23,437 bases of DNA from a virus: the IMG/VR virus record IMGVR_UViG_3300032092_000266, positions 1 through 23,437 of that record; one strand, written 5' to 3'. A program made the translations under genes and the position numbers. Numbering within the stretch: position 1 is the first letter of the stretch; every line of letters begins with the position of its first letter. The notes beneath the pieces were generated by a model. It saw nothing but the letters and a program-made list of their open reading frames with translations. It had not been told where the DNA came from and made no database searches. Shown here piece after piece: positions 3,491 through 14,925 of this stretch.

Positions 3491-3498
3491 TATCTTTG
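3491..3498 (+). promoter_or_regulatory. Promoter -7 box for the small RNA
   Basis: TATCTTTG fits the Bacteroidota -7 consensus TAnnTTTG. A start site 4-6 bases downstream falls at about 3502-3504, exactly the foot of the first RNA hairpin. No clear -33 TTTG is present about 20 bp upstream. Confidence 0.55.
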
Positions 3499-3502
3499 TA
3501 AT

Positions 3503-3600
3503 GTTCTTTAGATGGTGTGCAAGTCACCTAAAGAATTTTGAACAAAATAAACTTTGTTCACATGAGCCCAGTAGTCTTGCACCTATTGGGCTCTTTTTAT
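3503..3600 (+). ncRNA. Structured small RNA or leader: three hairpins with complementary loops
   Basis: A 98-base non-coding unit with three hairpins. H1: TTCTTTA 3504-3510 pairs with TAAAGAA 3529-3535, then after a GAT bulge GGTG 3514-3517 pairs with CACC 3525-3528, loop TGCAAGT. H2: TGAACAAA 3539-3546 pairs with TTTGTTCA 3553-3560, loop ATAAAC. H3: GAGCCCAGTAG 3564-3574 pairs with CTATTGGGCTC 3583-3593 (one G-U pair), loop TCTTGCAC, followed by a T run (terminator). Loop 1 TGCAAG (3518-3523) is the exact reverse complement of loop 3 CTTGCA (3576-3581), extendable to 7 bp with G3517-C3582, so a kissing-loop interaction is likely. With the promoter box just upstream this forms a self-contained transcription unit. 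It may be a free phage sRNA or a cis-acting leader of the methyltransferase gene at 3615. I do not recognise a named RNA family. Confidence 0.7.
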
Positions 3601-3603
3601 TTT
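3564..3603 (+). terminator. Rho-independent terminator ending the small RNA
   Basis: An 11-bp stem (GAGCCCAGTAG with CTATTGGGCTC, one wobble) with an 8-base loop is followed by TTTTTATTTT. The methyltransferase start codon lies 12 bases beyond it, with no promoter between. Confidence 0.8.
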
Positions 3604-3614
3604 AAAAAATTACT

Positions 3615-4766
3615 ATGAAAATATTACAGGAACTTGAAAGCCTTATTCCTCCATTATCAAACGAGGAATTTAAGCAGCTGGAACGAAACATTCTTGAAGA
3701 AGGGATTCGCGAACCATTAATTACATGGAATGGCATTTTGATTGATGGGCACAATCGATACAGGATTGCGCAGGAACATGACATGAATTACGAAACACTT
3801 GAAAAGGAGTTTGATAATATTAATGATGTAAAAATATGGATGGTAAATAATCAACTTGGAAGGAGAAACTTACCTGAGTTTGTAAGAGGTGAATTGCTAT
3901 CTTACATAAGAGATTTATTAAAATCCATTGGAAAAGAAAAATTAATAGAGGTTGGTAAAACATACGGAGAAGGTCATAAAAAAGAAGAGGGTTTATCAAT
4001 AGTTGATAAAGGCTCTCATAATACACAAAAAGAAATTGCCGAAAAACTTGGATGGAGTACTGGTAAGGTTGCAATGTTTGATATTGTAAGAACAAAAGCA
4101 CCAGAAGAAGTAAAGGAAAAATTAAGAACAGGGGAAGTAAGTATTAATCAGGCATACAAGGAAATTAAGAAGGAGGAAAAGAAAATTGAAAGAGTTGAAT
4201 TGATTCAAAAGCAAATTGAAGATATTGAAGAAGGTTTATTACCTGATTTAGTTGGATTATTTGACGTTGTTTCGATTGACCCTCCATGGCCATACGAAGC
4301 AGAAAGTAAAAATATAACCTCTTTTGATTCTGTTGGTAGAAGAGTTGCGAATCCATACCCTGAAATGAGTATAGAACAAATAAAGAATATTAAATTGCCT
4401 TTAATGGATAATGCTGTTGTTTTACTTTGGACTACTCATAAATTTCTGCCTGATGCTTTTGAAATATTAAAGGAATGGAAAACAGATTATAAAGCTACAT
4501 TGGTTTGGAATAAAGAAAAAATAGGCATGGGTGTATGGTTTAGAATGCAATGTGAGTTTTGTTTAGTAGGAATAAAAGGAAAACCATACTGGGATAATAC
4601 TACATACAGGGATATAATTACTGAATCAAGAAGAGAGCATTCAAGAAAGCCCGATTGTTTTTTTGAAATGATTGAAAAAATTACAATGGGAAATAGGTTG
4701 GAATATTTTAGTAGAGAAAAAAGAGAAGGCTGGAAAGTATTTGGTAACGATATAAATAAATTTTAA
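3615..4766 (+). CDS. ParB-like domain fused to MT-A70 adenine methyltransferase
   Basis: 383-aa fusion. Residues about 1-95 form a ParB/sulfiredoxin-type domain with the box GILIDGHNRYRIA (I43-D44-G45-H46), then KIWMVNNQLGRRNLPEF. Residues about 136-160 contain a helix-turn-helix (TQKEIAEKLGWSTGKVAMFD). A charged coiled segment (about 180-210) leads to an MT-A70 domain whose catalytic DPPWPY is at 222-227, followed by VVLLWTTHKFLPDAF and the C-terminal EHSRKPDCFFEMIE block common to this family. It should methylate adenine at N6 in DNA; the N-terminal half may recognise a site or use a nucleotide. Such ParB-MT-A70 proteins occur in phages and integrative elements, where antirestriction is a usual suggestion. 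It is preceded by the structured RNA and terminator, and its stop overlaps the nuclease gene by one base (TAATG). Composition is visibly more AT-rich than the flanking genes. Confidence 0.88.
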   Translation: MKILQELESLIPPLSNEEFKQLERNILEEGIREPLITWNGILIDGHNRYRIAQEHDMNYETLEKEFDNINDVKIWMVNNQLGRRNLPEFVRGELLSYIRDLLKSIGKEKLIEVGKTYGEGHKKEEGLSIVDKGSHNTQKEIAEKLGWSTGKVAMFDIVRTKAPEEVKEKLRTGEVSINQAYKEIKKEEKKIERVELIQKQIEDIEEGLLPDLVGLFDVVSIDPPWPYEAESKNITSFDSVGRRVANPYPEMSIEQIKNIKLPLMDNAVVLLWTTHKFLPDAFEILKEWKTDYKATLVWNKEKIGMGVWFRMQCEFCLVGIKGKPYWDNTTYRDIITESRREHSRKPDCFFEMIEKITMGNRLEYFSREKREGWKVFGNDINKF

Positions 4767-5266
4767 TGAATAATTGGAATAACAAAATACAGGTAAAAAA
4801 AGGTAATTTAGGAGAAAAGATTGTTTTAGGTATTTTAGAGCAAAAAGGATATATTGTTTATCAATCTATAACAGACAAGGCTCATGCTTTTGATTTTTTA
4901 GCTATAAAAGATAAAAAGATTTTTAAAATAGCTGAAATAAAATCTAAAGCAAGATTAAATAAATACAATGCTACAGGAATAAATATAAAAAATTATGAAG
5001 AATATTTGCATATCTATGAAACTCAAAAAATAGACACGATTTTATTTTTTGTAGACGAACATCCAAAAGAAAAAAGAATTTATTGTCAGCAATTATCTGA
5101 ATTAATTAAGGATAAAACCATTGATAAAATAAAATATCCTAACACTAAAATTGTAAATGGTATAATATTGTTTTCATTAAATGATATGATTCACGTTAAA
5201 CATTTATCCGATAGTGAAATAAACGAATTAATAGCTTTTTCATCAAGAAAATATAATTATGAATAA
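4766..5266 (+). CDS. PD-(D/E)XK-type nuclease-like protein
   Basis: 166-aa protein with the residue pattern of the PD-(D/E)XK fold: GNLGEKIVLGILEQKGY supplies the first-helix Glu (about residue 17), HAFDFLAI the central Asp, and KIAEIKSKAR the E-x-K pair, all within the first 65 residues, as in Hjc/RecB-like and restriction nucleases. The remainder (YEEYLHIYETQKIDTILFFVD) is of the alpha/beta kind that completes the fold. No specific family is recognised. Its start overlaps the ParB/MT-A70 stop by one base, so the two are co-translated: a methyltransferase-nuclease pair reminiscent of restriction-modification, though a repair or resolvase role is equally possible. Base composition is very AT-rich compared with genes from 5300 onward. 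Confidence 0.65.
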   Translation: MNNWNNKIQVKKGNLGEKIVLGILEQKGYIVYQSITDKAHAFDFLAIKDKKIFKIAEIKSKARLNKYNATGINIKNYEEYLHIYETQKIDTILFFVDEHPKEKRIYCQQLSELIKDKTIDKIKYPNTKIVNGIILFSLNDMIHVKHLSDSEINELIAFSSRKYNYE

Positions 5267-6173
5267 GGTAAACAACAAAATAAAGGAAAACTTTACAACA
5301 ATTCCTAATAGTGTTATAAGGAATAAGGCACTATCCGACCGCGCTCGATTCCTCTTTTGCTACATGGCATCCATGCCCAATGATTGGCAGTTTTACCAAT
5401 CTGCAATGGCAAAGGAATTGGGGTACACAAAGGATACACTTAGAAAGTATATGGAAGAGTTATTATCAACTGGATACTTAATAAGGGAACAAAGAAGGGA
5501 AAAAGGTAAGTTTGATTCCTACGATTATACCATCAATTTTTCACCGTGTATGGAAAATACCGACACGGTAAAAAACCACAGTGGAAAAAATCCGACACGG
5601 GAAAAGTCGACAATAACAAATAAAGACTTTGAACAAAGAAAGAATAATACAAATATAGACCTACAAAAAGAATGTGAAAATTCTTTCACGCCTGCTCAAC
5701 CAAAAATTAATAATCCTTTCTCTCGCCAGGCTTACCATGATTCTCTGAACACTGACTCTGACCCAAAAGAAAATTTTGCGAAAAAAGAAAAGGTAGCCGA
5801 CCGCGAACCCTCCGAGACCTACCTCTGCTTTTCCGCCTTCGCCTCCACCTATGAACGTCTTGCAGGTGTTACCTATCCAAGTGATAAAGGCAATTTTATT
5901 ATGACAGCTAAAGATGGTGCAAACTGTAAAAAGTTAGTAACATGGCTAAAAAAGGTAAGTGCCAGTGAGCAGGCACCAGACGAAATGGTTAAAATGTTTA
6001 CAACTGCAGCATGGCAAATATCCGATAAGTGGCTAAAGGCTAACTTTACTATTAGCAATATCTACTCCCAGGCAAATAATATTTATACTAAATTTATGTA
6101 TTCCAACCCTGCCGCACAGGAGAAGCGGAGGCAGGAGGAGATTGAAAGGCTCGTAAATGAATTTCAACCATGA
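5259..6173 (+). CDS. Phage replication initiator-like protein (winged HTH N-terminus)
   Basis: 304-aa protein. The N-terminal 90 residues (FTTIPNSVIRNKALSDRARF, then a QSAMAKELGYTKDTLRKYMEELLSTGYLIREQR helix-turn-helix and wing) match the winged-helix domain of phage and plasmid replication proteins. A low-complexity, polar linker (about 95-180) follows, then a helical C-terminal domain (YLCFSAFASTYERLAG to the end) that may recruit a helicase or loader, as in lambda O/DnaD-type proteins. It presumably binds the phage origin and starts replication. Iteron-like repeats lie inside the linker-coding region (5543-5605). It overlaps the nuclease gene by 8 bases and the next methyltransferase gene by ATGA. 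An alternative reading as a transcription regulator is less likely given the two-domain layout and the context. Confidence 0.75.
   Translation: MNKVNNKIKENFTTIPNSVIRNKALSDRARFLFCYMASMPNDWQFYQSAMAKELGYTKDTLRKYMEELLSTGYLIREQRREKGKFDSYDYTINFSPCMENTDTVKNHSGKNPTREKSTITNKDFEQRKNNTNIDLQKECENSFTPAQPKINNPFSRQAYHDSLNTDSDPKENFAKKEKVADREPSETYLCFSAFASTYERLAGVTYPSDKGNFIMTAKDGANCKKLVTWLKKVSASEQAPDEMVKMFTTAAWQISDKWLKANFTISNIYSQANNIYTKFMYSNPAAQEKRRQEEIERLVNEFQP
5543..5605. repeat. Iteron-like repeats inside the initiator gene, candidate origin
   Basis: Three related sites are present: ACCGTGT (5543-5549, inverted), ACACGGT (5563-5569) and ACACGGG (5595-5601). The last two sit in a longer imperfect direct repeat, TGGAAAATACCGACACGG (5551-5568) and TGGAAAAAATCCGACACGG (5582-5600), each followed by AAAA within two bases. 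The CGACACGG cores are 32 bases apart, so they fall in different reading frames and are not explained by protein repeats. An A-rich, unwinding-prone stretch follows (about 5601-5670). Lambdoid origins have this position and layout inside gene O. Confidence 0.55.
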
Positions 6174-13440: not shown

Positions 13441-14098
13441 ATTCCCACACTACACCTTGCTGCACTGCATAGTCTAAGATGCCCTTTGCGTGCGCTTTAG
13501 CAATACTCTGCTGCCAATTAACATCTATCATTAATTCAGCATCAGAATAATTAGTAAAGAATCCATTTTCCGACAACACAGCAGGCATAGATACACCAGT
13601 AAGCATTTGAAACCTTGCCTCTTTGTCTAAGTCATTGTCCGTATAATCAGCTCTATGCACCCATCCTGGTGTAGCAGTTTTTATTTGCTCCCCGATGCAA
13701 GTAGCAAGAAGATCTGACTTGGTTTCTCCTGGTGATGTAAATATCTCCCATCCTCTGGCAGTAGGTGACGCAGCATTGCCATGAATAGAAACAAGGATAG
13801 AGTGTTTAGCCACAGATGCGTAGGATGTGGCAAGTTGGCAGCGTTTATTCAATGTTGTATCATTGATAGGCTCATATATCTTTTTCACTTGGAATCCATA
13901 ATCAATAAGATACTGCTCCAAATAATTAGCTAATGAGCGATTAAATACTCCTTCGAAAAACCATCCATAGGAATGAAACTTGCCTGTGCGATGTTGGCAG
14001 CACTTAGAAGGATAGGTAACATATTTCTCTGGGCCCGTTCCATTCCTCATGCCACCGTGCCCGGCATCAAGGCATATTAAAAATTCATTTGGTTTCAT
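13439..14098 (-). CDS. N-acetylmuramoyl-L-alanine amidase (Amidase_3), endolysin
   Basis: 219-aa zinc amidase. The metal and catalytic residues of the Amidase_3 family are present: H14 in LDAGHGG, E49 in WFFEGVFNRSLA, H106 in LVSIHGNA, and the catalytic Glu E177 in PAVLSENGFFTNYSDAELM. It cuts the bond between the glycan strand and the stem peptide of peptidoglycan. There is no signal peptide, so it depends on the holin (15379-15783) to reach the wall. It is the last gene of the late arm, coupled to the metallophosphoesterase by an ATGA overlap. Confidence 0.93.
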   Translation of the reverse strand: MKPNEFLICLDAGHGGMRNGTGPEKYVTYPSKCCQHRTGKFHSYGWFFEGVFNRSLANYLEQYLIDYGFQVKKIYEPINDTTLNKRCQLATSYASVAKHSILVSIHGNAASPTARGWEIFTSPGETKSDLLATCIGEQIKTATPGWVHRADYTDNDLDKEARFQMLTGVSMPAVLSENGFFTNYSDAELMIDVNWQQSIAKAHAKGILDYAVQQGVVWE

Positions 14099-14925
14099 TC
14101 TGCAAATTGAAAATTGTAATTTAATTTTAGGTCAGAACCAATAGTATATTTCATCCATATACCTGCACCAGATTTAGGAGCTAAACCTTTTTCAATAGCA
14201 TAACCATTAAAATCTATTGGTGCGTTTTGATACGTTCCCGTTTTAATGTGCCATTGTTGGTCTATGCTTTCACCGTAACGACTTATACGATTTCTTGTTA
14301 TTGGAACTATCCATCTATCGTGTGTATGCCCACTAATAACAATATTTGCATCTGGAAGATAAACAGCTCTTCTTGCCGTTTGTATAACATCTTTAGTGAC
14401 TGGACCTCCCATTCCGTATCCATGGTGGAATGCAATAATTAAGGCTACTTTTGTACCTTCCTCAAAATAAGCGAAAAATCTGCAATAAATGTACCCCGAG
14501 TAATTACCCTGACTCATTTCTAACTGATAACAAATTTTATCAACTATTCCATATTCAATGCGTTTTTCAACGCTTGTCTCATGGTTGCCAGGTGAATAGA
14601 AAGCAAGTATAGATTTGTAAGGAGTCAAAAATTCTACTACATCTTTAATGACTTCATCTATATATCTTGCAGTATTGTATTTTGGATTTAAATCTGCTTT
14701 ATTGCTACGTGGGTCGTATTTGCCTTGCATTAAATCCAATAAATCACCAAAAATAAATACTGGTGCATTTCGTTCTAAAGCTAAATCAAGGTGTTCTTTT
14801 AACTTCACTCTATCACAATGAACACTATCTAAATGAACATCTGATATAAGTAAAAAATACCTATCTTTTTGGTACACTTGAAAATCTAAAAATTCATAAG
14901 TATTGGGAAATATTTTCTTTAACAT
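14095..14925 (-). CDS. Calcineurin-like metallophosphoesterase
   Basis: 276 aa with all the phosphoesterase signatures: D29-x-H31 in LLISDVHLD, GDLLD at 60-64, GNHE at 113-116, the HH pair near 167-168, and GHTH at 199-202. Two metal ions should be bound. Substrate is unknown; phage members may be 2',3'-cyclic or phosphodiester phosphatases or DNA-repair exonuclease relatives, but this one lacks the Mre11 C-terminal part. Unusually, it sits inside the lysis cassette between a small late gene and the endolysin. Its start codon comes just after a terminator-like hairpin and a run of ten A on the coding strand. Confidence 0.9.
   Translation of the reverse strand: MLKKIFPNTYEFLDFQVYQKDRYFLLISDVHLDSVHCDRVKLKEHLDLALERNAPVFIFGDLLDLMQGKYDPRSNKADLNPKYNTARYIDEVIKDVVEFLTPYKSILAFYSPGNHETSVEKRIEYGIVDKICYQLEMSQGNYSGYIYCRFFAYFEEGTKVALIIAFHHGYGMGGPVTKDVIQTARRAVYLPDANIVISGHTHDRWIVPITRNRISRYGESIDQQWHIKTGTYQNAPIDFNGYAIEKGLAPKSGAGIWMKYTIGSDLKLNYNFQFAE

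Follow-up and report, generated by a model that had tools for sequence, protein, structure and literature searches.

We find that a 23,437-base virus fragment (the window, by which we mean the whole stretch of DNA analysed) carries at positions 3491-3603 a putative small RNA whose first and last hairpins have exactly complementary loops, and that this RNA belongs to an apparently undescribed family that is common in phages of an important bacterial phylum, the Bacteroidota, cultured isolates included. In alignments of its relatives, the contact between the two loops has near-perfect covariation support. A sequence-only reading of the window had described a -7 box, three hairpins, a terminator and complementary loops 1 and 3, and direct inspection found all of these as described (Table 1). 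The element folds at -34.9 kcal/mol (z -4.8), with 0 of 200 shuffled sequences equally stable. The terminator hairpin spans 3564-3593 and runs into five T residues at 3594-3598. Loop 1 reads TGCAAGT (3518-3524) and loop 3 reads TCTTGCAC (3575-3582); they have the core TGCAAG/CTTGCA in common, and the match extends to 7 bp as GTGCAAG with CTTGCAC. Genes on the window fragment include those for a tape-measure protein, ssb, the ParB/MT-A70 protein, an HTH replication protein and an N6/N4 methylase, and a tRNA and tmRNA search of the window returned none.

Table 1. Coordinates of the kissing-loop element and the neighbouring genes in the window
Feature	Position	Strand	Basis or remark
-7 promoter box TATCTTTG (Bacteroidota type TANNTTTG)	3491..3498	+	direct read; fixed place in relatives
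Predicted RNA of ~95 nt	3503..3600	+	start placed from the box, end from the T-run
Hairpin 1	3503..3536	+	fold; 9 of 11 modelled pairs double-changed, 94% of cells paired
Loop-1 kissing strand GTGCAAG	3517..3523	+	core inside loop 3518-3524
Hairpin 2	3539..3560	+	fold; class A only, missing from classes B and C
Hairpin 3 and T-run (intrinsic terminator)	3564..3598	+	10 of 10 pairs double-changed, 99% of cells paired
Loop-3 kissing strand CTTGCAC	3576..3582	+	exactly 7 pairs 100% Watson-Crick; adjoining columns mostly unpaired
Gene for ParB-like N-terminus and MT-A70 methyltransferase	3615..4766	+	ATG at 3615, 17 nt past the T-run
Replication initiation protein gene	5259..6173	+	in relatives, own second kissing RNA directly upstream; none in the window

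A protein search with MT-A70 yielded 80 viral loci. In many of them the equivalent place holds a promoter box and a hairpin, in many cases with another hairpin behind it, and then a terminator, with loop sequences that differ from locus to locus yet match themselves. We built a mechanical detector that takes a box, follows the transcript to a T-run, computes the lowest-energy fold and requires that an upstream loop and the last loop be exactly complementary over at least 7 bases. Within the first 536 kb, there were 42 matches of at least 7 bp on the gene strand; the other strand gave 4, reversed sequence 2 and shuffled sequence 0. Enlarged by scans with replication genes and with a DNA pattern, the total set comprises 144 distinct RNAs with 50 loop words.

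Both complementary words are placed in the two hairpin loops in every class of these RNAs. Class A is the window type, in which hairpin 2 stands between hairpin 1 and the terminator hairpin. Class B is without hairpin 2; its loop 1 consists of the kissing word plus about ATTATA, and its terminator hairpin is interrupted by a GAA/GGA internal loop. In class C, hairpin 1 is short and the terminator hairpin contains an internal loop of the form AGTA...GAA (e.g. L048:2270-2388, L476:2715-2804); this internal loop is conserved, resembles the bulged-G (loop E) motif and might be contacted by a protein or take part in a tertiary contact. Classes A and B have kissing helices of opposite polarity, with the GU-starting strand in loop 1 in class A and in loop 3 in class B, and in both an unpaired purine stands just before that strand (alignments A3 and A4). 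One leader (L041:4830-4985) carries two different complementarities, GTGATAA/TTATCAC and GTGAAAAGTT/AACTTTTCAC.

The sequence-only reading had judged the loop match unlikely to arise by chance, and relatives found without any use of the loop pairing bear this out. Covariance model R1 describes only the nested stems, with the loop pairing left out, and its 91 matches represent 70 distinct class A sequences. Pairs were counted on the model-fitted alignment A3, in which the loop pair is likewise unmodelled, the first R1 alignment being non-structural in hairpin 1. The 7-bp loop-loop helix was paired in 484 of 484 cells, and changes on both sides were seen in 6 of its 7 pairs. Double-changed cells numbered 149, compared to 33 +/- 9 in shuffles, none of which (0/500) reached the observed value. 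Sliding the partners by 1 to 3 columns lowered pairing to 25-42%, and loop 1 of one RNA paired on average at only 4.0 of 7 positions with loop 3 of another; 18 different loop words occur in class A. The helix is also sharply bounded at exactly 7 bp, as columns just outside it are 7-26% Watson-Crick while those inside are 100%. Among 43 class B sequences, 41 have an exact 8-bp match, one a 7-bp match and one a G-U wobble (L421), and none of the 41 exact 8-mers extends beyond either border. Loss of the stems and of the loop complementarity in homologues had been named in advance as the outcome that would count against the structure; in the relatives both are kept.

G-U pairs are absent from the class A loop helix (0 of 484 cells), while the stems contain many. 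This would fit a reading in which the matched words act in DNA, either as a protein-bound interrupted inverted repeat or as hairpins of single-stranded DNA at an origin, a role suggested for STAXI, and the presence of ssb, methylase and replication genes nearby points the same way. We nevertheless give this reading hardly any weight: the matched words lie exactly in hairpin loops across several unrelated scaffolds, the promoter box and T-run are conserved, and the class B wobble is a G-U intermediate.

The element had also been proposed to be a discrete phage RNA with its own promoter and terminator, and this view is upheld in the relatives. In 70/70 class A and 45/47 class B sequences, the -7 box keeps a fixed position ahead of hairpin 1, the background being 0.04 per window, and the run of five T residues is found in 69/70 and 41/47, respectively; box and T-run are conserved on the strand of the downstream gene. 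The start of a codirectional gene lies mostly 11-29 nt past the T-run (144 RNAs), in a count whose filter takes only RNAs with a gene within 70 nt; typically this gene encodes a replication initiator or the ParB/MT-A70 methylase. In class A phages, a first RNA (RNA-1) stands before ParB/MT-A70 or whatever has replaced it, be it an HNH-like gene, another methylase or an unknown gene, and a second (RNA-2) before the replication initiation protein gene. Class B and C RNAs are followed by MT-A70, by a DUF6291 gene with a primase/helicase-like gene behind it, or by some other short gene with which the replication region opens. Only RNA-1 is present in the window, and there is no room for RNA-2 because a nuclease-like gene overlaps the replication gene. 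The loop word of the window's RNA-1, GTGCAAG, is one of the two commonest RNA-2 words in relatives (cf. L059:3402-3504).

A cis leader controlling ParB/MT-A70 had been among the roles suggested for the element. Its position does fit a cis leader, but the specific tie to MT-A70 had to be rejected, as the RNA stays where MT-A70 is absent or replaced; the same loop words are also found before different genes. The gene flanked by the two RNAs of class A phages is a hotspot (L084:5773-7245, L298:2097-2206, L301, L319, L323, L326) at which MT-A70 is swapped for other methylases, HNH-like or unknown genes, with the first codons (MQILQE...) sometimes kept and the RNAs staying in place. At one locus, a tRNA gene lies upstream of the RNA region (L073:3803-3872; Rfam RF00005, 41.3 bits).

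The features of an attenuator or leader are thus present in the sequence, namely a promoter, a structured leader and an intrinsic terminator directly before a codirectional gene. Sequence comparison establishes the structure and the loop pairing, and from them and from the position of the RNA we infer a function: with a probability of about 0.5, the RNA is a cis leader or attenuator of early replication genes. RNA polymerase would start at the -7 box and make mostly the ~95-nt terminated RNA, and the downstream gene would be expressed from transcripts that read through hairpin 3, since there is no room for another promoter. As the RNA emerges, the kissing contact would lock hairpin 1 against hairpin 3 and so set the passage of polymerase into the replication genes; candidates for the tuning step are a protein of phage or host origin and a further copy of the RNA. 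Because the complementarity stops at the loop borders, the kissing complex would coexist with the terminator instead of forming an antiterminator that replaces it. An antiterminator reading was rejected given these sharp borders and a terminator stem left uninvaded by the complementarity, and a search for an alternative antiterminator structure or a ligand pocket found none. The loop pair is probably the working part, as it is, together with promoter, terminator and gene spacing, all that otherwise different scaffolds have in common. Two points speak against a cis leader: the compactness of phage genomes could by itself explain the closeness to the next gene, and a purely structural kissing helix does not need to change about three times faster than the stems.

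The second of these points rests on comparisons of close relatives whose divergence outside the loops is at most 6%; in these, kissing positions differ at 5.5%, stems at 1.6% and other unpaired positions at 4.3%; an earlier loop-versus-stem comparison was biased, its pairs having been chosen for different loops, and the unselected repeat gave a weaker effect in the same direction. Kissing positions are thus about threefold more different than stems and about equal to unpaired linkers. That the helix, although paired throughout, changes about as fast as the unpaired linkers suggests, as far as sequences can tell, selection for new loop sequences. Outside the loops, only 1 of 80 sites distinguishes the second RNA of L059 from that of L073, yet their loops are GTGCAAG/CTTGCAC and GTGAAGG/CCTTCAC, respectively; between L060 and L269 the loops changed as a paired unit with 1 other difference in 85 sites; and in L466 and L467 the terminator hairpins and downstream DNA are identical but for 3 loop bases, which are compensated in loop 1.

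RNAs with the kissing fold are also present in cultured phages, where they mostly stand before replication genes. Flavobacterium phage 11b has one at 33621-33720 with loops CGGGCAGG/CCTGCCCG, and Flavobacterium phage lillamy9-1 has one at 14098-14202 with GTGAGAC/GTCTCAC, identical in the five relatives checked; whole-genome scans of these two phages on both strands found this single place in each and nothing more. The loops are GGTGGAA/TTCCACC in Polaribacter phage Danklef_1, CTCTCACAA/TTGTGAGAG in Cellulophaga phi19:3, and GTGCAG/CTGCAC in Croceibacter phage P2559S, a 6-bp match below the cut-off of the whole-genome scan. At the place examined, no convincing RNA was seen in elemoA, tant8-1, Riemerella CRP5 or PJA1. 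Models R1 and R2 found no prophage copies in 296 and 395 sampled Bacteroidota genomes, a search that shows little, as it had no positive control. In lillamy9-1, an Rfam DUF805b RNA (L479:815-849; 52.1 bits) precedes the ParB-like gp041, with the kissing RNA lying about 1.3 kb further downstream. The replication-gene match of OQ791282.1, labelled 'Shigella phage Henu10', is shared at equal coordinates with Riemerella phage ON933637.1, and the host label of the former may be wrong.

The best account of loops that vary yet match themselves would be self-recognition in trans, in which the terminated RNA binds other copies of itself, loop 1 to loop 3, and shuts off or times the replication genes. 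Its targets would be nascent leaders on sister or superinfecting genomes, with the variable loop pair serving as a private code. Paired-unit changes on near-identical RNAs (as in the three pairs of loci above), the rapid change of kissing positions relative to stems, the place before replication initiators and the precedents of P4 CI RNA and IsrK (PMC4825925) and of IncK RNAI loops (PMC10724649) all argue for this reading, and in none of 17 detector configurations did the two RNAs of a phage have a loop in common. This last difference, however, is not significant against positional loop pools (P = 0.67). Intramolecular pairing should normally win over pairing between copies, the RNA is identical in six lillamy-type phages from two genera and two host strains, and no prophage copy was seen in the 296-395 sampled Bacteroidota genomes. 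We consider self-recognition in trans the main rival of the cis leader, possible but unlikely. Equally tentative, and rather doubtful, is the broader proposal of an RNA-only self-recognition code widespread in Bacteroidota phages, in which a private 7-8 bp pair on each leader would provide copy sensing or superinfection incompatibility, and the code would diversify while staying self-complementary.

The promoter, the terminator and the seed-like appearance of the variable 7-8 nt loops would also suit an independent small RNA in which one loop serves to regulate an unlinked target in phage or host while the other loop hides or protects this seed. We think this improbable: identical loop words stand before different genes, and loop words and their complements are not enriched in neighbouring DNA (19 and 26 seen, compared to 34.7 and 28.6 expected). 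On the latter count, the idea that the loop word has a third copy acting as target was also rejected. We found no support for a decoy or anti-defence role, which the sequence-only reading had offered as further options.

The cis leader remains the reading that we favour, and if the loop pair acts only in cis, the family offers a clean natural system for the effects of kissing loops on termination and leader function. If the pair is instead read in trans, it would constitute a new RNA identity code controlling phage replication. Phages 11b, lillamy9-1, P2559S, Danklef_1 and phi19:3 are ready laboratory systems for the kissing RNA.

Consistent with the initial impression that the element belongs to no known family, Rfam 15 at gathering thresholds gave 0 matches in the window, and its matches at 21 relative loci were confined to tRNAs and a separate DUF805b elsewhere, with none to the element. 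Permissive matches (rli38, tsr26, Qrr) were rejected as sub-threshold scores of the generic hairpin-plus-terminator kind. The c4 model RF01695, for the P4-CI type of immunity RNA, matched neither the window nor the relatives. A search of the open literature, with most subscription journals outside its reach, found no published description of the kissing-loop RNA.

Among characterised systems, P4 CI RNA (with seqA-seqC) and Gifsy-1 IsrK are precedents for action on an RNA's own leader (PMC4825925). Like the kissing RNA, they are short RNAs derived from untranslated leaders, those of early or replication genes, with complementary segments on the same transcript; IsrK likewise has a terminated short form and a read-through mRNA form, and both achieve specificity via short complementarity (PMC4825925). 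P4 CI RNA differs in that it undergoes processing and has its targets outside its own sequence, pairing with which causes premature termination (PMC4825925), whereas the kissing RNA, ~95 nt long and ending in an intrinsic terminator of its own, carries both partners in two of its hairpin loops. Target sites of the P4 kind, placed elsewhere on the leader, are lacking; the complement lies inside the RNA itself.

In phi29 pRNA, too, a single phage RNA carries a pair of complementary loops, which vary between phages while always covarying (PMC12670572). Such loops are the hallmark of the pRNA ring (PMC12670572), and the phage RNAs GOLLD and ROOL multimerise by kissing loops (PMC12286853), so that the kissing RNA might likewise self-assemble into dimers, rings or chains, with loop 1 pairing to loop 3 of the next molecule. 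We regard this as decidedly improbable, as the linkers look long enough for pairing within one molecule, the RNA is sited before replication genes and not packaging genes, and no protein partner is common to the different contexts. In pRNA, loops of different molecules pair over 3-4 bp within a ring that sits on the packaging motor, whereas the kissing RNA has 7-8 bp, another fold and length, a place adjoining replication and modification genes, and no link to packaging. GOLLD and ROOL resemble it as phage-borne structured RNAs with covariation-supported kissing loops (PMC12286853), but they are several hundred nucleotides long, form multimeric cages and often lie near tRNA genes, compared to about 95 nt here. 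RNAI in the copy control of I-complex plasmids also involves kissing loops upstream of a rep gene, with loop changes setting specificity (PMC10724649); there, an opposite-strand transcript matches its target automatically, whereas here one strand encodes both loops. The STAXI motif similarly contains pseudoknots and lies near ssb, antirestriction and other DNA-handling genes, but it consists of two or three tandem pseudoknots, is listed for Enterobacteriales and does not have this loop-loop arrangement (PMC2864571). None of phi29 pRNA, the I-complex plasmids and GOLLD/ROOL has this fold, this context or a same-strand double-loop design; the kissing-loop RNA apparently represents an undescribed family.
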